From assembly GCA_012519315.1 (NCBI GenBank), contig JAAYQM010000048.1, positions 1 through 42,367 on the forward strand: DNA of 42,367 bases. Reading direction: 5' to 3'. Below the pieces are notes generated by a model. It saw nothing but the letters and a program-made list of their open reading frames with translations. It was not told the DNA's origin and did not search any database. This DNA comes from Clostridiales bacterium. Its GTDB lineage: Bacteria > Bacillota > Clostridia > Oscillospirales > CAG-272. Position numbers and translations under genes: made by a program. Below are positions 3,874-27,713 of this stretch, one piece after another (position 1 is the first letter of the stretch; every line of letters starts with the position of its first letter).

Positions 3874-4452
3874 CTATTTGTTAATATCAATATAGGACCA
3901 ATACTGCCTGAGATAGCTGTATCCCGACCAAAGAGTGACAATCGTCATAACAGCCATCGCTATATAGCTTAAAAGATAATCGGGCGTTGGCCAGGTTTTT
4001 GTAACGGCACGATCTAATAAAAGAGTTACGATACATACAATCTGAAGGACTGTTTTCAGTTTGCCTATAAATTTGGCGGCAACAACGGTACTGTCCTTGC
4101 CTGACACAATAAGTCGCAGCGAGGTCACCGCAAGCTCACGCAGAATTACTAGAATAGCTACCCAAATAAATATGTAGCTTATCTCCCGCTGCTTTACCAA
4201 AATAGCCAACAAAGCGCCGAATATCATAAATTTGTCGGCAAGCGGGTCTAGAAACTTTCCAAAATCGGTCACCGTATTGCTTCGGCGGGCAACTATACCG
4301 TCGAGGGTATCGGTTAGGGCCGTTAAAATAAAAATTGCAGCTCCGATAATATTTGACCACTCTCCCGGCAAAGGAAGCATAATGACCAACATAAAAACCG
4401 GAACAAGGAAAACTCTCAATATCGTGAGTTTGTTTGCCAGGTTGACCTTCAT
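3874..4452 (-). CDS. pgsA: CDP-diacylglycerol--glycerol-3-phosphate 3-phosphatidyltransferase
   Basis: MKVNLANKLTILRVFLVPVFM start and CDP-alcohol phosphotransferase motif (LTDTLDGIVARRSNTVTDFGKFLDPLADK). Confidence 0.93.
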   Translation of the reverse strand: MKVNLANKLTILRVFLVPVFMLVIMLPLPGEWSNIIGAAIFILTALTDTLDGIVARRSNTVTDFGKFLDPLADKFMIFGALLAILVKQREISYIFIWVAILVILRELAVTSLRLIVSGKDSTVVAAKFIGKLKTVLQIVCIVTLLLDRAVTKTWPTPDYLLSYIAMAVMTIVTLWSGYSYLRQYWSYIDINK

Positions 4453-4501: not shown

Positions 4502-5833
4502 TTAAAGGGTGCGGATATAGTCACCTTTTAAATCATAGTCAATGGCCTCGGTGATTTTTACCTCAACAAAGGTGCCTTCGGAAATTTGTTTGTTTGCTGA
4601 AAAATATACTTTTCCGTCAATGTCCGGGGCATCGGCATAGCTACTGCCATAATATATCCCGCTTACCGTATCATAGCCCTCTCAAAGAACGGTAACCTTC
4701 TTGCCGACCATCTTCTGACATATAGTATCGATAACCGCCATCTGCTCCCTCATCAGTATGTCATGTCTCTTCTGCATTACCTGAGTGTCAATTTGGTCTT
4801 CAAAATCATAGGCAGGGGTATCCTCTTCCCTCGAATAGACAAATGCGCCAAAACGCTCAAACTTAACCTCTCTGATAAAATGGCAGAGAGAAATAAAGTC
4901 CTCTTCACTCTCCCCCGGAAATCCGACAATAGCTGTTGTTCTCAACACGATATCGGGTATCTCACGGCGTAGCTTTTCTATAACCGAGCGAATGAAGGTG
5001 CTGTCCCCCCGGCGATTCATCCTTTTCAATACATTGTCAGAAATATGTTGAACAGGGATGTCCATATATTTAACAATCCGATCATTGTCACGAATTTCGG
5101 CTATTAATTCATCAGTTATCTTATCGGGATAGCAATAAAGAATCCGAATCCACGGAATTGCTGTAGCATCGGTAATGGCTCGCAGCAGCTCAGGCAGCCT
5201 ATAATCTCCATAGAGATCAAGACCGTAACGTGTGGTATCCTGCGCGATTACACAGAGCTCCTTTACGCCCAGCGACTCCAGCTGCTTTGCCTCTGCAACT
5301 ATATCCTCCATCGGACGAGAACGAAATTTCCCGCGCACAAGAGGAATGGCACAATAGGTGCAGCGGTTGTCACATCCTTCAGCTATCTTAAGGTAGGCGA
5401 TATAATCCGGCGTTGTCAAAACTCTGTCACCGCCGAGGCGATGCTTTTCTTTGTCTTTGAAGGAGGAAAATTTCCTCCCCTCAGCAACCGACTTCACAGC
5501 AAGCGCAATATCATGGATACTGCCGACACCGAGAACGGCATCAACCTCCGGCATCTCTTCAAATATTTTTTCACGATATCTCTCGGCAAGACATCCCGTC
5601 ACTACAATTCCCCGCAGCTTGTGATTTTTCTTAAGCCACGCCACATCCAAAATATTGTCGATTGACTCCTGCTTTGCACTCTCAATAAAGGCGCAAGTAT
5701 TAATAATAATAATATCCGCTTCGACATCTACCGGGGTGATTTCAAACCCCTCGGTCAGAACCTCGTGCAGCATAACCTCAGTATCCACTTGATTCTTAGA
5801 ACAGCCGAGAGAAACAAATCCGATTTTTAACAT
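4502..5833 (-). CDS. rimO: Ribosomal protein S12 methylthiotransferase RimO; reading frame interrupted by an in-frame TGA at 4682-4684
   Basis: MLKIGFVSLGCSKNQVDTEVM, radical-SAM CDNRCTYCAIP and TTAIVGFPGESEEDF. After VTVL-TGA the same frame continues EGYDTVSGIYYGSSYADAPDIDGKVYFSANKQISEGTFVEVKITEAIDYDLKGDYIRTL-TAA, a RimO TRAM-like C-terminus. The ORF track stops at the TGA. Confidence 0.9.
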
Positions 5834-8377: not shown

Positions 8378-10906
8378 TTATTCTTTCGAACTGTTCTGTG
8401 TTTCATTTTCAGCCGTTTCATCAGCTATTTCCTTCTGTTCTGTATCATCCTGATCGATTAAATCATCAACCTCTTCAGAGGGCACCTTTGCAAAATTAAC
8501 AATAGAAGCGCCTTCAGCCAGCCTCATGACAATAACGCCCCCGGCCGACCTTGAATAAACGGGTATTTCTGAAACAGATGTTCTTACAACTGTGCCGTCA
8601 TTAGTGATCATCATGATGTCATCATCTTCATCCACCGTTGAAATAGATGCGAGAAGTCCTGTTTTTTCACTGATTTTATGGCAGGTTACCCCACGACCGC
8701 CGCGATTTTTCATTATTCTGAAATCATTGAAGTCGGTCCGTTTTCCATATCCGTTTTCAGTGATGGTGATGAGTTTTCTTGTATCGTCGACCAATGCAAC
8801 ACCGGCCACCTCATCCCCATTTTCAAGACGGATGCCAATAACTCCTCTTGCTACCCGTCCCATGCACCGAACATTTTCCTCTGTATAGCGAACGGCAAGA
8901 CCCTGACGCGTTGCGATAATAATCTCACTGTTCCCTTTAGTATGACGAACAAAAACAAGCTCGTCGCCCTCGTCGAGAGTAAGAGCTATCTTGCCTCCTC
9001 TGCGTTTATAGGCGTATTCTGTCAAAAGGGTGCGCTTGATAATACCGCGCTTTGTAACCATAGTGAGATATTCGCCCTCTTCAAAAGAAGGGACGGAAAT
9101 TGCTGCCGTTATCTTTTCCCCTTCGGAAAGCTCAATAATATTGACAATATTAGTTCCCTTTGCTGTTCTTGATGCCTCCGGTATCTGATAAACCTTTATC
9201 ATATGAACCTTGCCGGTATTAGTAAACATCATGAAATAGGAATGGCTGTCAACAACCATCACATTTTCAATGAAATCCTCTTCCTTGGTGGACATGGCAA
9301 TAATGCCCTTGCCTCCTCGGCGTTGGGCAGAATAGGTGCTAACCGGCTGTCTCTTGATATATCCTGCGTGGGTCATGGTAAGAACGCATTTATGGCGTTC
9401 TATCAAATCCTCAAGAACGATGTCGTCCTCCGACTCAAATATCTCTGTAAGCCTTTCATCAGCAAAGCTTTTCTTTATTTCCAGCAGCTCTTCCCTAATA
9501 ATGTCTCTTGTTTTACTGTCGTCAGCTAAAATCGCCTGTAATCTTTCAACCGTCTCGGCAAGGCTTAATAAGCGATCTTCGATTTTCTTCCGTTCAAGCC
9601 CGGATAACCGACCTAAAGTCATCTCTACTATTGCCTGTGCCTGAACCTCTGTAAACTTAAACCGGGCAATCAATGCCTCCTTCGCTTCGGGAACAGAGGC
9701 GCTCTTCTTTATAAGCTCAATAACTTCGTCTATATGATCGATCGCTATCTTATATCCCTCATAAATATGCATCTCCCGCAGGGCACGGTCAAGCTCAAAC
9801 TGGGTGCGGCGAACTATTATTTCTTCCTGGAATTTAATATAATGGGTCAGTATTTCCTTAAGATTTAACACTTTCGGCTCGCCGTCTACAAGAGCCAGCA
9901 TATTAACGGCACAGGTATCCTGAATCTGGGTATATTTATAAAGCTGATTGAGGATAATCTGCCCGTTTGCATCCCGCCTATATTCAATAACTATACGCAT
10001 TCCGCGGCGGCCGGACTCATCTCTTATTTCTGTAATACCCTCTATCCGCTTATCCTTTACAAGGTTCGCCATGCTTTCCACAAGCTGGCTCTTATTGACC
10101 ATATAGGGTATTTCGGTAATAATAATTCTCCGGTGATCTTCCTCAACCTCTGCTCGTGCTCTAACCTTTATATGTCCGCGTCCGGTACTGTATGCCTCAA
10201 AAATCCCGGCGGTGCCGTATATCGTTGCTTTTGTCGGAAAGTCGGGACCCTTTATATACTGCATAAGATCAACGACAGTCGCATCGGGATTATCCATAAG
10301 ATGAATAGCTCCGTCTATTACCTCTCCAAGATTATGGGGAGGGATATTGGTAGCCATTCCAACTGCTATTCCGACAGCGCCGTTAACCAGAATATTAGGA
10401 AAACGAGAAGGCAGAACAACCGGTTCCTTTAGTTTGTAATCGAAGTTTGGCGCAAAATCAACAACATTTTTGTCGATATCCGCCATCATTACGTTGGAAA
10501 TTTTAGATAGTCTTGCCTCTGTATAACGATAAGCAGCGGCACTGTGTCCATCTATATTACCGAAGTTTCCTTTACCCTCTACAAGAGGATAACGATATGA
10601 AAAGGGCTGTGCCATACGTACCATTGTATGATAAACGGCAAGGTCGCCATGGGGATGATAGCGTCCGAGAACATTACCGACCGTTGTTGCCGATTTTCTG
10701 AAAGGGCGATCATAGGTCAGGCGATCCTCATACATCGCATAGATTATGCGGCGTTGTCCAGGCTTCATGCCGTCTCTTACATCGGGAAGAGCACGGCTTG
10801 TAATAACACTCATAGAATAGTCAATAAAAGATTTTTTTACCTCTTTTTCCATCGGAATATTGACTATTTTTTGATCGCTGAATTCTAAGTTTTCTTTATT
10901 ATCCAT
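8378..10906 (-). CDS. gyrA: DNA gyrase subunit A
   Basis: [33 protein letters not shown], ...RYHPHGD...[12 protein letters not shown] and the QRRGGKG GyrA box. Confidence 0.97.
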
Positions 10907-10999
10907 ATTTTATGACCAATATTTATTCAACAATAACTAAATTGAATAAATCTATCCTTATTCGATAAATTTTAGTGTCTTGCAGAGATTTCCACAGCG

Positions 11000-11020
11000 T
11001 TTTCCACAGCCTGTGGAAAA
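11000..11020. repeat. Perfect inverted repeat TTTTCCACAG-C-CTGTGGAAAA with DnaA-box-like half sites, just after the gyrB stop
   Basis: Read directly; a third TTTCCACAG copy lies at 10989-10997. Confidence 0.85.
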
Positions 11021-13214
<2,194 letters not shown>

Positions 13215-13243
13215 AAATCGAAATCTCCCATATTCTCTTGTTT

Positions 13244-14347
13244 TTACTGTAAAATAGTGTATTTGCCCTTTTCCACATAAATTTTTCTTATTTCCCTATC
13301 ATCACAAAAAAGATCTTTTTCGCAGCTTGTAATAATTATTTGTCTGTTCTCAAGAGCATTCAAAACATAATTTTTTCTTGAATCATCAAGCTCGCTTAAT
13401 ACATCATCAAAAAGAAAAACCGGATATTCCCCCATCAAATCCCTTGATATTTCCCCCTCCGCCAGCTTAATGGCAAGGGCAATCGAACGCTGCTGTCCCT
13501 GGGAGGTGAAATTTCTGGAATTTACTCCGTTTAATTTTATAATAATATCATCTCTGTGAATTCCATATAGAGTTGCTTTAGCATTTTTTTCTTTTTCTAT
13601 GTTATTAAGAAGAAGTGATGTGTAATCCTGTATAACCTTTTCCTTTGTTGCTTCTTTGTCATCGATATCACAACGATATCTTAGGGAAACCGATTCCGCC
13701 CCCCTTGTCATTTCGTTTATATAAAGATTTATATAATACTCCAGTCTGGAAATATAATCCTTTCTCGCCATATATATATCAGCCGCGTAATTGGCAAGTA
13801 TCAGAGACCATGCCTCAATCTGGCTTTTATTTTTAGCGGAAAAATTTTCTTCTCTCAATAATGTGTTTCGGTTGACGACAATTGCATTGTAATTACTAAG
13901 CCATTTGATATAACCGGGCATCGATTGGGAAAGTGCAATATTTAACAATGAGCGTCTCTCTCCCGCTCCTCCTTTTATAAGAGAAAGATGATCCGGACAA
14001 AAGAAAACAGCGCGAAATCGACCGATCATATCGGGCAGTCTGTCTATTTTTATTCGGTTATGATGGCGCACCTTTGCCCCTTCATAATAACGAATGCTCA
14101 GCTGCTGCTCTCTTCCTTCCGCTTCATAATTCAATGTGTTAAAATATTCGTTTTTCCCGATAGTTGCTATTTCACGGTCAGAGGCGCCCCTAAAGCTTTT
14201 TCCCCTTGCAAAGGTATAAATAGCTTCCAATACATTTGTTTTGCCCTGTGCATTGTTGCCGATCAAAACATTGACACCCGGAGAAAATTCAATGCTTGCT
14301 TTTTCTATGTTTCTGTAATTTTCAAGGACTATACTTCGGCAATACAC
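13244..14347 (-). CDS. recF: DNA replication/repair protein RecF
   Basis: YRNIEKASIEFSPGVNVLIGNNAQGKTNVLEAIY (Walker A), SQGQQRSIALAIKLAE signature and FLFDDVLSELD (Walker B). Confidence 0.95.
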   Translation of the reverse strand: MYCRSIVLENYRNIEKASIEFSPGVNVLIGNNAQGKTNVLEAIYTFARGKSFRGASDREIATIGKNEYFNTLNYEAEGREQQLSIRYYEGAKVRHHNRIKIDRLPDMIGRFRAVFFCPDHLSLIKGGAGERRSLLNIALSQSMPGYIKWLSNYNAIVVNRNTLLREENFSAKNKSQIEAWSLILANYAADIYMARKDYISRLEYYINLYINEMTRGAESVSLRYRCDIDDKEATKEKVIQDYTSLLLNNIEKEKNAKATLYGIHRDDIIIKLNGVNSRNFTSQGQQRSIALAIKLAEGEISRDLMGEYPVFLFDDVLSELDDSRKNYVLNALENRQIIITSCEKDLFCDDREIRKIYVEKGKYTILQ

Positions 14348-14402
14348 AAATACCTCTCCTATAAAGCATTGAATTCCTTTTCTCCTGCCATTTTAAAATA
14401 CA

Positions 14403-15542
14403 CTAATCTTTCATTTTTACAGGCAAAACCATATAAAGGAAATTGTCGTTTTCATCAAAATTCTCCGGCTCAATTGTCATACTCATCAAAGGAGAAATAA
14501 GCTTTATCCTTACCTTTTCTGTTGTTGCAGCCCGCAGACTTTCAAGAAGATATCTGCAATTGAACCCTATCTCAATTTTGCCGCCCGAATGCTCGCAAGA
14601 AATCTCGTCATACACATTTCCGTTTATTGAGGTCGAGGATAATTTTAAAAGATTATCTTCAAAAGAGCATTTTACATAGCTGCGAACACTTCCCGCCGAT
14701 TTATCCTCCGATACCAATGCGGCTCTCTCAAGCCCTTCGATCATTTCGTTACGGGATATAACAACATTGATAGGCTGATCCTTTGGTATAATTCTCTTAT
14801 AATCAATATAATCACTGTCAATAAGGCGGGAGAAGAAGATTATTTCCCCGATATTAAAGATAATATGCTTTCTAGCAAGGGAAATAGAAACAACATCCTC
14901 CCCGTCCGGCAAAAGCTTTTGCAGCTCGTTCAAGGATTTTCCCGGAACGATAAAGCTAAGTGAAAGATTTTCTTCAGACTGATTGATTTTGCTGATAACC
15001 TCACATTTTGCAAGGGTATAGCTGTCACAAGCGACAACGGTTATCCTATCATTATCGATTTCAAAATAACCGCCGCAGAGCATTGGGCGCATATCCTGCA
15101 CTGCTATAGAATGAGAGGTTTTATTAATAAGACCCTTCAATATTCCCGATTCAAGGCAAAAATTATTTATTCCGCTTAATTCAGGCAAGGTGGGAAAATC
15201 TCTTCCGTTAAGAGCATGAAGGGAAAATGAGCTCTTGCCGCTGGTGATGGTAGCAAGTAGTTTTTCATTTATTTCAACGGTAATGGTATCCTGTGGCATC
15301 ATGCGAACAATCTGAAAAAAGCGATGTGCGTTTATAATATTGCTGCCCGGTTCGATAACAGTTGACTCAACCGTTGCACAGACGCCCTTTTCCATATCAT
15401 AAGTAGAAAGACGACAGGCTTTGTCATCAATTGTTTCAATTAATACTCCCTCAATAGAGGTAAAAGTATTTTTAGTTGAGACTGCACACATTGCAGGGGA
15501 TAATTTTTCAATAAGAGAGTGTTTTTCAAAAATAACCTTCAT
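14403..15542 (-). CDS. dnaN: DNA polymerase III subunit beta
   Basis: MKVIFEKHSLIEKLSPAMCAVSTKNT...SIEGVLIET and C-terminal FLYMVLPVKM. Position between dnaA and recF. Confidence 0.95.
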   Translation of the reverse strand: MKVIFEKHSLIEKLSPAMCAVSTKNTFTSIEGVLIETIDDKACRLSTYDMEKGVCATVESTVIEPGSNIINAHRFFQIVRMMPQDTITVEINEKLLATITSGKSSFSLHALNGRDFPTLPELSGINNFCLESGILKGLINKTSHSIAVQDMRPMLCGGYFEIDNDRITVVACDSYTLAKCEVISKINQSEENLSLSFIVPGKSLNELQKLLPDGEDVVSISLARKHIIFNIGEIIFFSRLIDSDYIDYKRIIPKDQPINVVISRNEMIEGLERAALVSEDKSAGSVRSYVKCSFEDNLLKLSSTSINGNVYDEISCEHSGGKIEIGFNCRYLLESLRAATTEKVRIKLISPLMSMTIEPENFDENDNFLYMVLPVKMKD

Positions 15543-16036
15543 TTTTTCACCGTTTTATTTTCTTTTAGGAAGAAAATAAATTATCCTTTATTATAAAAAA
15601 ATAATAAATATATATATTTATTTTAGTAATAGCAGTAGTAGGGGAGGGGTAAACTGTTATAAAGTCGGATAGGTCTTTTATATAAAGGGAAAGAGGGAAA
15701 AGATTTACTGGAATTATACTTTAAAAGCGATAGAAATTTTGTGGAAAAATTTATATTAAAAAATGTTTTTCTTTTTTTAGAAATGCTTTTTCTGATTTTG
15801 GGGTAATTAACAAAACGAAAAATAAAAAAAATTGGGGAAAAGAAGTAAAACTTTAAATACAAAAAAGGAAACGATAACAGCATTTACCCAAATTAACAAG
15901 AAGAAACAAAGAAGAAAGGTCCTTGTTTTAAAAGGAAACCTTTTTATTCCGAACAAGCGAAGAAAAGTTTTACACAAAAATTATCAAAGTAGGATAAAGA
16001 TGAGGAAAAGGGGTGTAAAACTATATAAAAGCATAT
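15543..16036. other. oriC: Candidate oriC unwinding region (dnaA-dnaN intergenic)
   Basis: AT-rich tract 15585-15623, TAG-TAA-TAG-CAG-TAG-TAG (15624-15641), G-rich cluster GGGGAGGGG (15641-15649), then DnaA-box-like TGTGGAAAA (15740-15748) and TTTTACACA (15968-15976). Confidence 0.65.
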
Positions 16037-17452
16037 TTATCCCTTTACTTCTTTAATTAAATCGGAAATTTCCGTTTCAAAAAGAGGATTTTGCTCTATA
16101 TCCTTTTCAATTTTACGGACAGAGGACAAAATTGTGGTATGATCCCGTGAAAAAATAGACCCGATAGAGCTTAGAGAAAGCTCGGTAAGGCTTCTTAAAA
16201 GATAGATACAGATATGACGCGCATTGGCGATGTTATCCGTTCTTTTTTTACTTTTAATAACCTCGGTGGGGATATTGTATCTTTTAGAAACGGTATTGAA
16301 AATTTTATCAATGGTGACATTCACCGGCTCACTGCCTGATAAAAGATCGGAAATAGCGTTTTTTGCAAGCTCGAGAGTAACCTCGGAGCCGGTCAAAAAG
16401 CTCATAGCCGCGATTTTTTTAATAGCTCCCTCAAGCTGGCGGATATTGCTTTTCAGCCTGTCCGCCAGATATGTAACCACATCGTTGGGCAGGCGAAGAT
16501 CCATAGCAGCGGCTTTCTTTTTAATTATAGCCATACGAAGCTCAATATCCGGCGGCTGAATGTCAACAATAAGACCCCATTCAAACCGGGTTTTCAGTCT
16601 GTCCTCGAGAGTCTTAATATCACGAGGAGGTCGGTCGGAGGTTAGAATAATCTGTTTATGTTCTTCGTAAAGGGAATTAAATGTGTGGAAAAATTCCTCC
16701 TGTGTCGATTCTTTTCCCGCAATAAACTGAATATCGTCAATAAGAAGAACGTCGGCATTACGATATTTGTCCCTGAATTTAATAGTATGCTGTTTTGAGA
16801 TGCTGTCTATCAGCTGATTTGTAAATTCCTCTCCCTTGATATAAATAATATTGGAATTAGGGAAATTAATGGAAATTTGATTTGTAATCGCATACATCAG
16901 ATGAGTTTTGCCAAGACCGCTTTGTCCGTAAATAAAAAGAGGATTATATGCTGTGGAGGGATTGTTTGCCACTGCAATGCAGGCCGCATGGGCAAATTTG
17001 TTTGAGTTGCCGACGATAAAATTGTCAAATGTGTATTCTTTTGACACATATTTTACAGAATCATTGTGATAGGCAGAGCTGTCCATAGAAAGGTTGTCCT
17101 TTTCACCTGAAAAAGAGGGGGAAACAGAAGTAATGCTTTGCGGCTGTGGAACGGAGGCAGATATTTGCTCAATCCCTTCAATATCCACAAGACCTTTTTC
17201 ATTTGAAAGAATAATTATTTCGACTTCGAAGCCGAGAATGTCGGCCATATGGGTTGAAATAATGTCATGATATTTATTAATAATAATATTTCTTTTAAAA
17301 TCGCTGTTAATCATGAACACAGCGCGGCTTTCGGTGAGGGATATAAGATCAAGATTTCCAAACCAAAGATCAAGGGTGGTTTGGGAGAAATCCTCTTTCA
17401 TTTTATCCTTTACCAAAGACCAGACATTTTTAACATCATCAAGAGACTGCAT
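16037..17452 (-). CDS. dnaA: Chromosomal replication initiator protein DnaA
   Basis: YTFDNFIVGNSNKFAHAACIAVA, GQSGLGKTHLM (Walker A), LLIDDIQFIAGKESTQEEFFHTFN (Walker B) and SIGSIFSRDHTTILSSVRKIE (domain IV). Confidence 0.97.
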   Translation of the reverse strand: MQSLDDVKNVWSLVKDKMKEDFSQTTLDLWFGNLDLISLTESRAVFMINSDFKRNIIINKYHDIISTHMADILGFEVEIIILSNEKGLVDIEGIEQISASVPQPQSITSVSPSFSGEKDNLSMDSSAYHNDSVKYVSKEYTFDNFIVGNSNKFAHAACIAVANNPSTAYNPLFIYGQSGLGKTHLMYAITNQISINFPNSNIIYIKGEEFTNQLIDSISKQHTIKFRDKYRNADVLLIDDIQFIAGKESTQEEFFHTFNSLYEEHKQIILTSDRPPRDIKTLEDRLKTRFEWGLIVDIQPPDIELRMAIIKKKAAAMDLRLPNDVVTYLADRLKSNIRQLEGAIKKIAAMSFLTGSEVTLELAKNAISDLLSGSEPVNVTIDKIFNTVSKRYNIPTEVIKSKKRTDNIANARHICIYLLRSLTELSLSSIGSIFSRDHTTILSSVRKIEKDIEQNPLFETEISDLIKEVKG

Positions 17453-21167: not shown

Positions 21168-21647
21168 ATACAAAAGATCACCTTAATATCGGTGGGAAAT
21201 CTGAAAGAAGAATATTTTCGCAATGCTGCCGCAGAATATGAAAAAAGACTATCCGGTTTTTGCACATTTCGAAATATTAACCTAAAAGAAGAAAAGATAA
21301 GAAATGAAAATAGTCAGGCAGAAATAGTGGCTGCTCTTGAAAAAGAAGGGGAAAGGATAATAGCATCCTTTCCTGCCCGCGCCTATAAAATTGCCCTCTG
21401 TATCGAGGGGGAGCAATATACATCGGAGGGACTTGCCTGTCAAATTGAAAGGATAGGCGAGATAACATCGGAAATATGCTTTGTTATCGGAAGCTCCCAT
21501 GGTTTATCGGAAAAAGTAAAAAAGAGCTGTGATAAGACCTTTTCTATGTCGAGGTTGACATTTCCGCACCAATTGGCCCGTATCATTTTACTTGAAGCAG
21601 TTTATCGTGCGCTGAGCATTTCAGCAGGCGCTAAATATCACAAATAA
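21168..21647 (+). CDS. rlmH: 23S rRNA (pseudouridine-1915-N3)-methyltransferase RlmH; start uncertain (ATA at 21168 fits homology; first canonical start is GTG at 21192)
   Basis: VGNLKEEYFRNAAAEYEKRL, FVIGSSHGLSEKVK and LTFPHQLARIILLEAVYRALSISAGAKYHK. The upstream frame reads IQKITLIS. Confidence 0.87.
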   Translation: MQKITLISVGNLKEEYFRNAAAEYEKRLSGFCTFRNINLKEEKIRNENSQAEIVAALEKEGERIIASFPARAYKIALCIEGEQYTSEGLACQIERIGEITSEICFVIGSSHGLSEKVKKSCDKTFSMSRLTFPHQLARIILLEAVYRALSISAGAKYHK

Positions 21648-21691
21648 TGCGCAAAAATTGTTTTATACCCAAAAAAGGAGAAAAAAGAAGC

Positions 21692-23806
21692 ATGTCTCTA
21701 TTTTTGAAAATAGAAAAAGGTTTTACTAAACCTAGGATTTATAAATTTTTTAGTCTTTGTTTTCTTCTTTTGTTCACCTTTATTGTCTTAGTTTATCAAA
21801 ACGGGTATTTCAGCATTTCCTTTATAAAAGATGGAAGAGATAGCGAGCAAATCACTACCGATACGCAAAGCGGGAAAACAACAGGAAAATCCACCTCCTT
21901 ACCGAATTATGAAATTGGTGATGAGGACGAAGAATACGATATAGAATATGCGAGAAAATATATTTTTGAGCTGAGGAAAGCGCAAAACATCAGTAAAATC
22001 GGATTGACCGCGGGAGAGAATAAAACCGAAGAAGAAATAGACGATGAAACCCCGATTTATAAAAGCAGCCTTGATCTTATAGAAGAAGGATATAAGCTTT
22101 CTTATGCAGACTATAAGAAGGATTCCTTTGTGATCGGACAGATCAAACTTGAGGGTATTTCAAAAGAGTATACGCAAGGAATGAAGAATCTTCTGGCTTA
22201 CCGTATTGTTCGACCTGAGCAGGACGGGATACCATATACACAGAGTTATATTAAATCTCAAGCCAGACTAACCCTGGAGCCTTATATGGGATATATTATT
22301 CATACGAGTAAGGGCAAGCAACTGATAAAAAACAGTTATGGCACGTTGCTGGGCTCTTTTGAGGGCGGCTCATTTATGCCGGCATATACGCGAGACAATG
22401 ATGATCGGCCTTTGTTTTTTATCAATAATGTTTTTAATAAATATTATTATCTTGATGAGGCAACCGGTCAATTTGTTTTAAGTGACTATAATGAAAAGAA
22501 AGATTCAAGGGGGCTCTTTTTTGATTACAATCCCGATTTTGGAAAATCGGATAATGATATTCAAAGATTATATACCATTGAAAAAAAGCTGATTCCCGAC
22601 CCTGATTATGATCCGAGCACAGAGGGGAAGAACGGGGAAAATCTTCTTTCAGCGCCGCCGGAGTATAACTTTTTATCGCTGATTACCGGAAGAAATAATG
22701 TCAATATCCGAAAATTATACACAGCTGTTGAAAATATAAATGTTTTTGATGATGAGGACACATCATCGCCGGAGACAACAACTCCTCCGGAGACAACAAC
22801 CTCTCCGGAGACAACAACCCCTCCGGACACAACAACTCCTCCGGACACAACAACCCCTCCGGACACAACAACTCCTCCGGACACAACAACCCCTCCGGAC
22901 ACAACAACTTCGCCGGAGACAACAACTCCGCCGGAGACAACAACTCCGCCGGAGACAACAGGATCGGAGGAAACCACAACTCCGCCAGACACCACCGATC
23001 CGGAGGAAACCACAACTCCGCCAGACACCACCGATCCGGAGGAAACCACAACTCCGCCTGATACGACAGATCCGGAGGAAACCACAACTCCGCCGGATAC
23101 CACCGAGCCTGTTATCGATCCTCCGATGATTGAGATAGAAATTTTTAAAGGGGCATACGGTTATCGACGTGGGAGAGAGATAACCGGCTATCAGTTTCCC
23201 ATACTTTACAATTTTTCAGGCGGCTTTGGTTGTGTTGTCTATGAAAACGGAAACCTTATGTTTGTTCGCACAAATGGTTATGTCGGGATAACAGGAACAA
23301 GATACTATTTTAATGAAAATGGCAGATATGTTTTGGCATCCTATGTTGAGCCTCTGATTCGTGGCGTCGAATCTCTCGGATATTATTATTTTGACGAGGG
23401 ACTGGTACGGGTCAGACAGCTTGATATCGATTCGGTTCATAAGAGTAAGGTAACCGGTGATTATGATTATTTAATCTACACCGATGGAAAACGATTTAAT
23501 ATTCCCTCAGGATATACCTTGGTTTCTTATTCGGACGGCATACTCCTCCTTGAGAAAAACGGTTATTACGGTTATTATCACAAAAACGGTTATTGGGTTG
23601 CCCAGCCCATTTTTACCTATGCCCGTCCTTTTGTTGAGGGACTTGGCGTTATCGGATTTAAGGGTAGCAAAAAGGGGGTTATTGACACAGCCGGTAATGT
23701 GGTTGTTCCCTTTGCCTATGAAGCCATTTCGGACATTTCCAGCGGAATTATGATCGGTTATCGAGCGGAAGACGGCTGGGCCGTTCTTGGTAAATTTACA
23801 AAGTAG
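21692..23806 (+). CDS. Membrane-anchored surface protein with Thr/Pro/Glu repeat linker and C-terminal WG-like repeats (start reassigned to 21692)
   Basis: N-terminal TM (FFSLCFLLLFTFIVLVY); (PE/DTTTP)n linker; C-terminal YGYYHKNGYWVAQPIFTYARPFVEGLGVIGFKGSKKGVIDTAGNVVVPFAYEAIS resembles WG beta repeats. AAGGAG lies upstream of ATG 21692. Confidence 0.7.
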   Translation: MSLFLKIEKGFTKPRIYKFFSLCFLLLFTFIVLVYQNGYFSISFIKDGRDSEQITTDTQSGKTTGKSTSLPNYEIGDEDEEYDIEYARKYIFELRKAQNISKIGLTAGENKTEEEIDDETPIYKSSLDLIEEGYKLSYADYKKDSFVIGQIKLEGISKEYTQGMKNLLAYRIVRPEQDGIPYTQSYIKSQARLTLEPYMGYIIHTSKGKQLIKNSYGTLLGSFEGGSFMPAYTRDNDDRPLFFINNVFNKYYYLDEATGQFVLSDYNEKKDSRGLFFDYNPDFGKSDNDIQRLYTIEKKLIPDPDYDPSTEGKNGENLLSAPPEYNFLSLITGRNNVNIRKLYTAVENINVFDDEDTSSPETTTPPETTTSPETTTPPDTTTPPDTTTPPDTTTPPDTTTPPDTTTSPETTTPPETTTPPETTGSEETTTPPDTTDPEETTTPPDTTDPEETTTPPDTTDPEETTTPPDTTEPVIDPPMIEIEIFKGAYGYRRGREITGYQFPILYNFSGGFGCVVYENGNLMFVRTNGYVGITGTRYYFNENGRYVLASYVEPLIRGVESLGYYYFDEGLVRVRQLDIDSVHKSKVTGDYDYLIYTDGKRFNIPSGYTLVSYSDGILLLEKNGYYGYYHKNGYWVAQPIFTYARPFVEGLGVIGFKGSKKGVIDTAGNVVVPFAYEAISDISSGIMIGYRAEDGWAVLGKFTK
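22775..23109 (+). repeat. Coding tandem repeat: about eleven 18-bp units (PETTTP/PDTTTP) followed by about four 36-bp units (GSEETTTPPDTT, DPEETTTPPDTT)
   Basis: Read directly: ACAACAACTCCTCCGGAG-type units, then GATCCGGAGGAAACCACAACTCCGCCAGACACCACC-type units. Confidence 0.92.
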
Positions 23807-23870: not shown

Positions 23871-23910
23871 ACCGACGGCCGACCCATTTTGGTCGGTCGT
23901 TGGTATCTTT
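23871..23910 (+). terminator. Strong hairpin between the WG-repeat gene and mnmG (terminator or leader element)
   Basis: ACCGACGGCCGACC-CATTTT-GGTCGGTCGTTGGT (14 bp with two G-U pairs) followed by ATCTTT. Confidence 0.55.
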
Positions 23911-23932
23911 TAACGTTAAGGACAAGAGGAAA

Positions 23933-25825
23933 ATGAAGTTTAAAGCAGATGTTGCGGTTATAGGGGCCGGTCATGCGGGGGTAGAGGCAGCTCTTGCCTG
24001 TGCAAGGCTTGGGCTTGATACCGTTATTTTTACTATCAATCTTGATTCGGTTGCCAATCTGCCCTGCAATCCGTCGATAGGGGGAGCGGGAAAGGGGCAT
24101 CTTGTCTATGAGATTGACGCTCTCGGAGGTGAGATGGGGAGAGTTGCCGATATGGCAACCCTGCAAAGCCGTACCCTTAATCTCGGCAAGGGAGCCGCCG
24201 TTCATTCAAAGCGGATACAAGCGGACCGAACCCTATATCGCATCCTTATGAAAAGTGTGCTTGAAAAACAGGAAAATCTAAGGCTGATTCAAGCGGAGAT
24301 TGTCGATATTCGCTGTGAAGAAAAAGGCGGGAAAAAGCAAATCACAAGTGTAATCACCCATCTTGGAGAGGTATGGGAGGTATGTTGCGCAATTATTTGT
24401 GCAGGAACATATTTGAATTCTACCATATTTGTCGGTCAAGTCTCTTATGACAGCGGGCCTGACGGGCTGATGCCCGCAAAAGGGCTTTCCTCCGCCCTGT
24501 TCCGGGAAGGAATTAAGCTGATGCGTTTTAAAACCGGTACACCGGCAAGACTGAAAAAATCCACTATCGATCTTTCAAGGCTTGATGTGCAGGAGGGCGA
24601 GGAGAGGATTGCTCCTTTTTCGGTTTTGACTGATCCTGTAGCGCTGAACAGTATCAGACAGATTCCATGTTATATGCTCTATACCAGTAAGGTCAGCCAT
24701 GACCTAATACGAAAAAACCTTCATCGTTCGGCTATGTATTCGGGAAAAATCCACGGAACCGGGCCGCGGTATTGCCCGTCTATTGAGGATAAAATCGTCC
24801 GCTTTGCTGATAAGGAAAGACACCAGCTTTTTCTTGAGCCGATGGGCGGCGACACTGAAGAAATGTATCTTCAGGGATTTAGCACCTCTATGCCCTCCGA
24901 GGTTCAGCATGAGATGCTTCGCTCCCTTGACGGCTTTGAAAATGTTCAGATTATGCGCTATGCCTATGCTATAGAATATGACTGCGCTGATCCGACACAG
25001 CTTTATCCCACGCTGGAATTTAAATCGATTGCAGGACTTTACGGAGCGGGGCAGTTTAACGGAAGCTCCGGTTATGAGGAGGCGGCGGCACAGGGATTGA
25101 TTGCCGGCATTAATGCGGCGATGCGTCTTCTGGGAAAGGAGAGCGTTGTTCTCGAACGAAGCAGCTCGTATATCGGAACGCTTATAGACGATTTGGTGAC
25201 AAAGGGAACAAACGAGCCATATCGCATTATGACCTCCCGTTCGGAATACCGTCTTCTTTTGCGGCAGGATAATGCCGATCTCAGGCTTACTGATATCGGA
25301 TACAGAGTTGGACTTATCAACCGGAAGCGGTATGATGACTTTTGCAGAAAGCGGGAGCAGATCGAGGAGGAGATCAGACGGATGAATAAAACGATTATCT
25401 CGCCCTCGAGCAAAACCAACTATCTTTTGCGTTCATACGGCAGCGCCGAAATAACAACAGGAGCAAGGCTTGCCGATTTATTGCGGCGACCTGAGCTTGA
25501 TTATGAAAAGCTGACCCCCCTTGATGAGGGGCGCCCCCCGATTAGTGAGGCGGCAGCAAGGACGGCGCAGATTATGATCAAATATGAGGGCTATATCAAT
25601 CGTCAGCTGGCAGAGGTCAAGCGTCAGGAAAAATATGAGAAAAGATTGATTCCCCCGGAAGTGGATTATACAAAAATCAGGGGTCTTCGACTTGAGGCGG
25701 TGCAAAAGCTGTCAAAAATACGTCCTATTAATATCGGTCAAGCATCGAGAATCAGCGGCGTTAATCCGGCGGACATTTCGGTTTTGCTTATTTGGCTGGC
25801 GCAACACGCTAAAAATAATGATTGA
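23933..25825 (+). CDS. mnmG: tRNA uridine-5-carboxymethylaminomethyl(34) synthesis enzyme MnmG (GidA)
   Basis: FKADVAVIGAGHAGVEAALACARLGLDTVIFT, CNPSIGGAGKGHLVYEIDALGGEM and MTSRSEYRLLLRQDNADLRLT. Confidence 0.96.
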   Translation: MKFKADVAVIGAGHAGVEAALACARLGLDTVIFTINLDSVANLPCNPSIGGAGKGHLVYEIDALGGEMGRVADMATLQSRTLNLGKGAAVHSKRIQADRTLYRILMKSVLEKQENLRLIQAEIVDIRCEEKGGKKQITSVITHLGEVWEVCCAIICAGTYLNSTIFVGQVSYDSGPDGLMPAKGLSSALFREGIKLMRFKTGTPARLKKSTIDLSRLDVQEGEERIAPFSVLTDPVALNSIRQIPCYMLYTSKVSHDLIRKNLHRSAMYSGKIHGTGPRYCPSIEDKIVRFADKERHQLFLEPMGGDTEEMYLQGFSTSMPSEVQHEMLRSLDGFENVQIMRYAYAIEYDCADPTQLYPTLEFKSIAGLYGAGQFNGSSGYEEAAAQGLIAGINAAMRLLGKESVVLERSSSYIGTLIDDLVTKGTNEPYRIMTSRSEYRLLLRQDNADLRLTDIGYRVGLINRKRYDDFCRKREQIEEEIRRMNKTIISPSSKTNYLLRSYGSAEITTGARLADLLRRPELDYEKLTPLDEGRPPISEAAARTAQIMIKYEGYINRQLAEVKRQEKYEKRLIPPEVDYTKIRGLRLEAVQKLSKIRPINIGQASRISGVNPADISVLLIWLAQHAKNND

Positions 25826-25868
25826 AAGCCGGAGCCCTGAAAAATGAATTAGGAAAGGAAAGCATAGG

Positions 25869-26618
25869 ATGGATATGATGTCGTCGGTCGACAAAAACGC
25901 CTTTTTTGAGGAGCTGGAAAGAATATTTGCCCTAAATAGCCTTGATAAATATTTAACCGAAGAAAGCAAGGAAAAATTTTATTTGTTTACTCGGATTTTC
26001 CTTGAGGTTAATAAAAGGATGAATCTGACATCGGTAACCGGTCTTAGCGACATTATTTTGAAGCATTATGCAGATTGTGTCACTGTGGCAAAATATATAC
26101 CGAAGGGCGCAAGGGTTATTGATGTGGGATGCGGTCCGGGATTTCCGCTTTTTCCGTTAGCTATTGTCAGGGAGGATATTCAAATAACCGCACTTGATTC
26201 AACAGCGAAAAAAATCGAGTTTGTGAAAAAGACGGCCGCCGCCATAGGGCTTGATAATATCGAGGTTTGTTGTAAAAGAGCGGAGGAGGCGGCGCACAAC
26301 CCTCTTTTGCGTGAAAAATTTGATATAGCCTGTGCAAGGGCGGTAGCCCGAATGGAAATCCTTTGCGAATATTGTATTCCCTATGTAAAGGTCACCGGAT
26401 CTTTCATTGCAATGAAGGCAAGACCGACACAGGAGGAGATTGAGGGGGCGGAACGGGCATCCCGACAGATAAATTCAAAGGTTGAAAAGATCGAAAAATT
26501 TACAATAACCGATGGAAATGAAAATTACGAGAGAATGCTTATTCTCATCAAAAAGCAATCTCCGACGCCAAAAAATTTTCCTCGAAATAATGCACAGATC
26601 TCAAAAAAGCCGCTTTAA
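25869..26618 (+). CDS. rsmG: 16S rRNA (guanine-527-N7)-methyltransferase RsmG (GidB)
   Basis: NKRMNLTSVTGLSDIILKHYADCV, VIDVGCGPGFPLFPLAIV and ARAVARMEILCEYCIPYVKVTGSFIAMKA. Confidence 0.94.
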   Translation: MDMMSSVDKNAFFEELERIFALNSLDKYLTEESKEKFYLFTRIFLEVNKRMNLTSVTGLSDIILKHYADCVTVAKYIPKGARVIDVGCGPGFPLFPLAIVREDIQITALDSTAKKIEFVKKTAAAIGLDNIEVCCKRAEEAAHNPLLREKFDIACARAVARMEILCEYCIPYVKVTGSFIAMKARPTQEEIEGAERASRQINSKVEKIEKFTITDGNENYERMLILIKKQSPTPKNFPRNNAQISKKPL

Positions 26619-26630
26619 GCGGCTTTTTTT
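26603..26630 (+). terminator. Rho-independent terminator after rsmG
   Basis: AAAAAAGCCGC-TTTAA-GCGGCTTTTTTT. Confidence 0.85.
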
Positions 26631-26777
26631 GCATGATTGATTACAAAAACAAGGAAATTTTAATAAAAACGGACAGAAAGAATTATTTTCAGCCTGAGAA
26701 AATTTGACGTAAAATATAATGGCGATGTGGTACTATTTTTGCAATAAATACCAAACGATGAAAAACGGAGGAAGAAA

Positions 26778-27713
26778 ATGAATGCCATTTCGCTGTTATC
26801 AAAAAACAAGAAAATGACAAAAAAGCCGATTCGAAATAATATGATGAATCTGAGCAAGCTGATTGCGGAACAGGCTGAGGCTACCGGAAAAATATATAAA
26901 ATCGCAGTTGAAAAAATCGTGCCGAATCCGTCACAACCAAGGAGGGCTTTCAGTGATGAGTCAATTATTCGGCTGGCTGACAGCATTCGTCAATATGGGA
27001 TTTTACAGCCATTGACTGTACGTAGGCCCGACCCCGGATATGATCCCGATCATGCAGCCGAAGAAGGACATATCGGAGAGGTGTACGAGCTGATTGCAGG
27101 GGAGAGAAGGCTTCGGGCGGCAAAGCTGATCGGACTTGCCGAGGTGCCCTGTATTATCATTGAGGTAGACAGTTGCCGATCGGCCGAGCTTGCTATTATC
27201 GAAAACATTCAGAGAGAGAATCTCAATATGTTTGAGCAGGCCGGCGCCATTGCGGCCTTAATTGATATTTATAATCTGACTCAGGAGGAAATCGCAAAGA
27301 AATTGTCGGCAAGTCAGTCCTATATTGCCAATAAGCTTCGGATTCTCAGATTTTCCGGAGAGGAACGGTATTTGATTTTGAGCAACAATCTGACCGAGCG
27401 TCATGCCCGGGCGCTTTTGCGTCTTAGGGATCCTGAACAGAGAAAGCAGGCGATTTTGGTTATTGCGCAGAAGGGGCTGAATGTGAGCGCCACCGAAGAA
27501 TATATCGAGCGGCTCCTTGAACCGAAAAGAAAAGAGGAGAGCGTAAAACGGACCATGATTATAAAGGATATTAGAATTTTCTATAATTCGATTGATCATG
27601 CGGTGGAAATTGTCCGACGGTCGGGCATTAATGTTATGACCGAGCGGAGGGAAAACGAAGAAACCCTTGAGCTTATTATCAAAATTCCGCGACGGGCGGA
27701 TAGGCTGCATTAA
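26778..27713 (+). CDS. noc: ParB/Noc-family nucleoid occlusion / partition-like protein
   Basis: VEKIVPNPSQPRRAFSDESIIRLADSIRQYGILQPLTVRR, ELIAGERRLRAAKLIGLAEVPCIII and IENIQRENLNMFEQA. Located after rsmG as Noc is. GGAGGAAG Shine-Dalgarno. Confidence 0.85.
   Translation: MNAISLLSKNKKMTKKPIRNNMMNLSKLIAEQAEATGKIYKIAVEKIVPNPSQPRRAFSDESIIRLADSIRQYGILQPLTVRRPDPGYDPDHAAEEGHIGEVYELIAGERRLRAAKLIGLAEVPCIIIEVDSCRSAELAIIENIQRENLNMFEQAGAIAALIDIYNLTQEEIAKKLSASQSYIANKLRILRFSGEERYLILSNNLTERHARALLRLRDPEQRKQAILVIAQKGLNVSATEEYIERLLEPKRKEESVKRTMIIKDIRIFYNSIDHAVEIVRRSGINVMTERRENEETLELIIKIPRRADRLH

Follow-up and report, generated by a model that had tools for sequence, protein, structure and literature searches.

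An in-frame TGA codon in rimO of a Clostridiales bacterium: very probably an isolated premature stop or consensus error, and not a selenocysteine codon

The rimO gene in the window analysed here, a stretch of 42,367 nucleotides from an uncultured Clostridiales bacterium of gut type, is interrupted by a single in-frame TGA codon. With a probability of about 0.93, this codon is an isolated single-base premature stop in an otherwise ordinary rimO gene, either as a recent nonsense allele or as a consensus error; a recent nonsense mutation and an error in the metagenome consensus carry about equal weight. The preliminary description of this DNA had offered selenocysteine, a nonsense mutation and an error as explanations; the first of these falls with the absence of the selenocysteine (Sec) system, while the other two remain. 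The genome (1.99 Mb in 128 contigs, 97.4% complete) is a draft that appears to be metagenome-assembled.

The interrupted rimO gene and its surroundings

The features of the locus are as follows.

5833 to 4502, minus strand: whole rimO frame, from its start at 5833 to the terminal TAA, with one internal TGA
4685 to 5833, minus strand: part of rimO 5' of the premature stop (coordinates without the stop), 383 amino acids with the UPF0004 and radical SAM domains
4682 to 4684, minus strand: in-frame TGA, codon 384, aligned with Cys in 77 of 104 relatives
4505 to 4681, minus strand: continuation of the frame for 59 codons that encode the remaining TRAM domain, with neither a frameshift nor a second stop
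4502 to 4504, minus strand: TAA, the ancestral rimO stop
3874 to 4452, minus strand: CDP-alcohol phosphatidyltransferase gene (pgsA-like), the next gene, presumed to form an operon with rimO

The TGA and the same-frame run to the TAA are present in the sequence as initially described, and the surrounding minus-strand codons read AAG GTT ACC GTT CTT TGA GAG GGC TAT. Translation of this frame yields, upon readthrough, a protein of exactly 443 amino acids (about 443 had been claimed) with the TGA as its sole interruption at residue 384. The read-through protein matches the NCBIfam model for RimO, TIGR01125, across all 432 model positions with a score of 495.9 bits; the truncated form of 383 amino acids still attains 452.1 bits, so that both exceed the cut-off of 356.95. 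The two cysteine triads known to bind the iron-sulfur clusters of RimO (PMC5352715, PMC3347575) are intact (residues 11/47/81 and 154/158/161). The complete set of RimO hallmarks, i.e., the UPF0004, radical SAM and TRAM domains together with both triads, is found only in the read-through translation. In its full-length match and its six cluster cysteines the protein is thus like a regular RimO, from which it is set apart by the TGA within the TRAM domain. An S12 protein with the D-L-P-G-V-R-Y-H loop is encoded in the same genome.

The RimO TRAM domain is thought to bind the basic substrate, protein S12. In the read-through protein, the Pfam domain TRAM_2 extends from residue 376 to 440 (E 2.9e-19), and the TGA therefore lies inside this domain and not just upstream of it. 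The 59-amino-acid tail alone is recognized as TRAM_2 as well (E 1.7e-16), while a Pfam search with the truncated 383-amino-acid protein returns no TRAM match. Hence, the view that TRAM sequence follows the TGA was right with respect to the downstream part, but the stop had been placed ahead of a domain that it actually cuts.

The pgsA-like gene is found near rimO in 100 of the 110 loci of relatives. Its start is 49 nt away from the TAA and 229 nt away from the TGA; the spacing between the two genes in relatives lies mostly between -4 and about 80 nt, with some much larger values, and the distance of 49 nt is well within this range. Elsewhere in the window, dnaA-dnaN-recF-gyrB-gyrA occupy positions 8378-17452 on the minus strand, and genes that resemble mnmG, rsmG and parB (named by their translations) are located at 23900-27713 on the plus strand; a replication-origin region is probably present near 17.5-18 kb. 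An ORF of 719 amino acids at 21647-23806 (plus strand) contains a long TTTPPDTT/TTSPETT repeat and probably encodes a surface protein with a low-complexity linker.

Decoding of the TGA codon

An alignment with 104 distinct RimO sequences of relatives shows, at the position of the TGA, Cys in 77, Val in 21, Thr in two, Tyr in two, and Ser and Ile in one each; the V, I or C initially named for this position was thus accurate. The Cys residues are encoded by TGC (64 relatives) or TGT (13 relatives), from either of which TGA is separated by one third-position substitution, in line with the one-step relationship to a Cys codon pointed out earlier. This mostly kept Cys (within VLCEG or VLCED; replaced by Val in about one fifth of the proteins) resides in the TRAM domain outside the Fe-S triads.

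The replacement of a mostly conserved Cys by TGA ahead of an intact downstream domain is what usually first points to a selenoprotein, and in these two respects the rimO gene studied here is like those bacterial selenoproteins that possess Cys-containing homologues. Decoding of the TGA as selenocysteine would involve SelB, tRNA-Sec and a SECIS hairpin. However, searches of the 97.4% complete assembly for selA and for selD, the latter a general signature of selenium use (PMC9312934), gave no match, and for selB they returned only sub-cut-off matches of the translational-GTPase type. One such candidate, C8, lies beside an EF-G-like match, runs to near the contig end and is probably EF-Tu. The sole match above the cut-off of the tRNA-Sec model (47.5 bits, cut-off 47) was identified by ARAGORN as a tRNA-Ser with the anticodon TGA. 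Furthermore, no selB above the cut-off occurs in any of 59 genomes from this family and order, and a gap in this particular draft is therefore not a likely excuse for the missing Sec genes. The sequence 3' of the TGA folds no better than shuffled controls (minimum free energy -17.4 versus a shuffle mean of -19.4, z +0.65), and its centroid structure has no stable stem-loop over the region in which a SECIS element would be expected; the GGCA...TGCC hairpin, initially called weak, is indeed unremarkable.

The interruption does not recur either. No internal stop is present in the RimO of any of the 57 relatives that have a match, nor among the matches listed for a class-wide sample of 391 genomes, which are the best-scoring ones and lean towards intact genes, so that the no-stop count is a lower bound. 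With the degenerate pattern V-L-TGA-E-[GD]-[YF]-D, rimO was matched only in the genome under study across the 391 genomes of the class; none of the five pattern matches outside this genome is located in rimO. The column itself is variable and is not among the six cluster-binding positions, and a review of prokaryotic selenoproteins makes no mention of RimO in its main text (PMC9312934). The coincidence of the TGA with a Cys column is unremarkable and not a strong sign of selenocysteine, since, by the codon usage of the genome sample, 22% of the codons that a single substitution can turn into TGA are Cys codons; within rimO itself, this holds for 10 of 30. Taken together, the missing Sec genes, the lack of a SECIS-like fold and of recurrence, and the non-catalytic, variable column distinguish this gene from bacterial selenoproteins; to the extent that the present tools permit, the selenocysteine reading is refuted, and we accord it practically no residual probability.

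The TGA might alternatively be translated without any Sec machinery. Such decoding as Cys, be it by a rare tRNA with the anticodon UCA or by efficient near-cognate decoding, would give full-length RimO, and we regard it as improbable. A suppressor tRNA (e.g., a variant of tRNA-Cys) that inserts Cys or another residue at UGA has a precedent in the selC* tRNA-Cys with its opal anticodon (reviewed in PMC7609411), and Cys would restore the majority residue of column 384. Yet no UCA anticodon occurs among the tRNAs found, TGA is a common terminator in this genome, and no other gene with a TGA in its interior was detected in 694 kb. The tRNA inventory of the draft has gaps, and tRNA-Cys is missing from it altogether; in view of these gaps we rate a suppressor tRNA as very unlikely, but not as refuted. 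The assembly also yielded no tRNAs for Asp, Phe, Tyr, His, Ile and others; tRNA arrays were probably lost from the draft, and the RF00005 search missed a tRNA-Ala(TGC) that ARAGORN found. Some leakiness of UGA is general in bacteria. Together with the normal conservation of the tail, this would accord with a programmed or tolerated low level of near-cognate readthrough that yields truncated RimO alongside the full-length protein; no stimulatory structure follows the TGA, however, and the stop is conserved in no relative, which argues against a conserved programme and leaves this possibility unlikely.

Global recoding of TGA had been considered improbable on the basis of pyrC, pyrF, pyrD and pyrE, and this view holds beyond the window: in a 694-kb sample (about 35% of the genome), 126 of the 406 ORFs of at least 250 codons end in TGA, and release factor RF2 is present in the genome, so that TGA is not globally recoded. 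A census of interrupted genes in the same sample, in which in-frame stops were counted, gave five candidates under a strict codon-bias filter, and rimO was the only convincing one. In three of the others, a start codon follows 2-5 codons past the stop, and these look like adjacent ORFs of the ordinary kind; the compositionally odd translation of the candidate L133:11525 suggests an antisense artefact; a looser filter returned 234 pairs, mostly antisense or chance, and was discarded.

Origin and age of the stop

An isolated premature stop in rimO would have arisen from an ancestral Cys codon (TGC or TGT) by one base change, which would be either a nonsense mutation of recent date in the population sampled or a wrong base in the metagenome consensus. 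If the stop is real, RF2 would terminate translation at codon 384, and the protein would be missing roughly four fifths of its TRAM domain. Production of the radical SAM part might continue, but S12 would probably be methylthiolated to a lesser degree or not at all. E. coli survives without rimO and grows only a little more slowly (PMC3347575), which makes a real nonsense allele plausible.

Loss of TRAM conservation, proposed earlier as a sign of a pseudogene, is not seen. The identity of the RimO tail is what would be expected from the identity of the upstream part (residual -0.002, rank 45 of 104), there is no acceleration, and the codon bias of the tail is kept (0.42 versus 0.32 bits per codon). 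Any nonsense mutation must therefore be recent, and from the conserved tail with its coding bias we infer that the stop is recent or artefactual. The same observation argues against a selected truncation, in which a TRAM-less RimO would be the functional form in this lineage: such a form would demand the upstream domains and the six cluster cysteines, all of which are intact, but an untranslated tail would have decayed, and the stop cuts within the TRAM domain and leaves a stub. This explanation is extremely improbable.

In a nonsense allele of somewhat greater age, first traces of relaxed selection would be expected, and the tail gives no indication of them apart from one residue. At position 397 (window 4643-4645, minus strand), 13 codons past the TGA, a Ser is found where 103 of the 104 relatives have Arg (YGRS). 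This exchange may mark the onset of relaxed selection, another error in the consensus or plain divergence; exactly one nearly invariant column is likewise broken in 16 of the 104 relatives, and Arg397Ser alone is therefore no proof of decay. If the exchange from Arg to Ser went from CGY to AGY, it would be a C-to-A substitution, of the same type as the step from TGC to TGA.

In a metagenomic survey of selenoproteins, sequencing error could not be excluded for TGA-containing genes known from one sequence only (PMC2398784). The rimO gene described here resembles those cases in its single occurrence and its origin from an apparently metagenome-assembled draft; it differs from them in that the Sec machinery is absent as well, which removes the selenoprotein reading.

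An isolated premature stop of this sort is ordinary. It does call for caution, as a TGA on a Cys column ahead of an intact downstream domain mimics a selenoprotein, here in a genome from which the Sec pathway is missing and whose relatives are devoid of selB. Annotation pipelines should, in our view, not label this rimO gene as encoding a selenoprotein.
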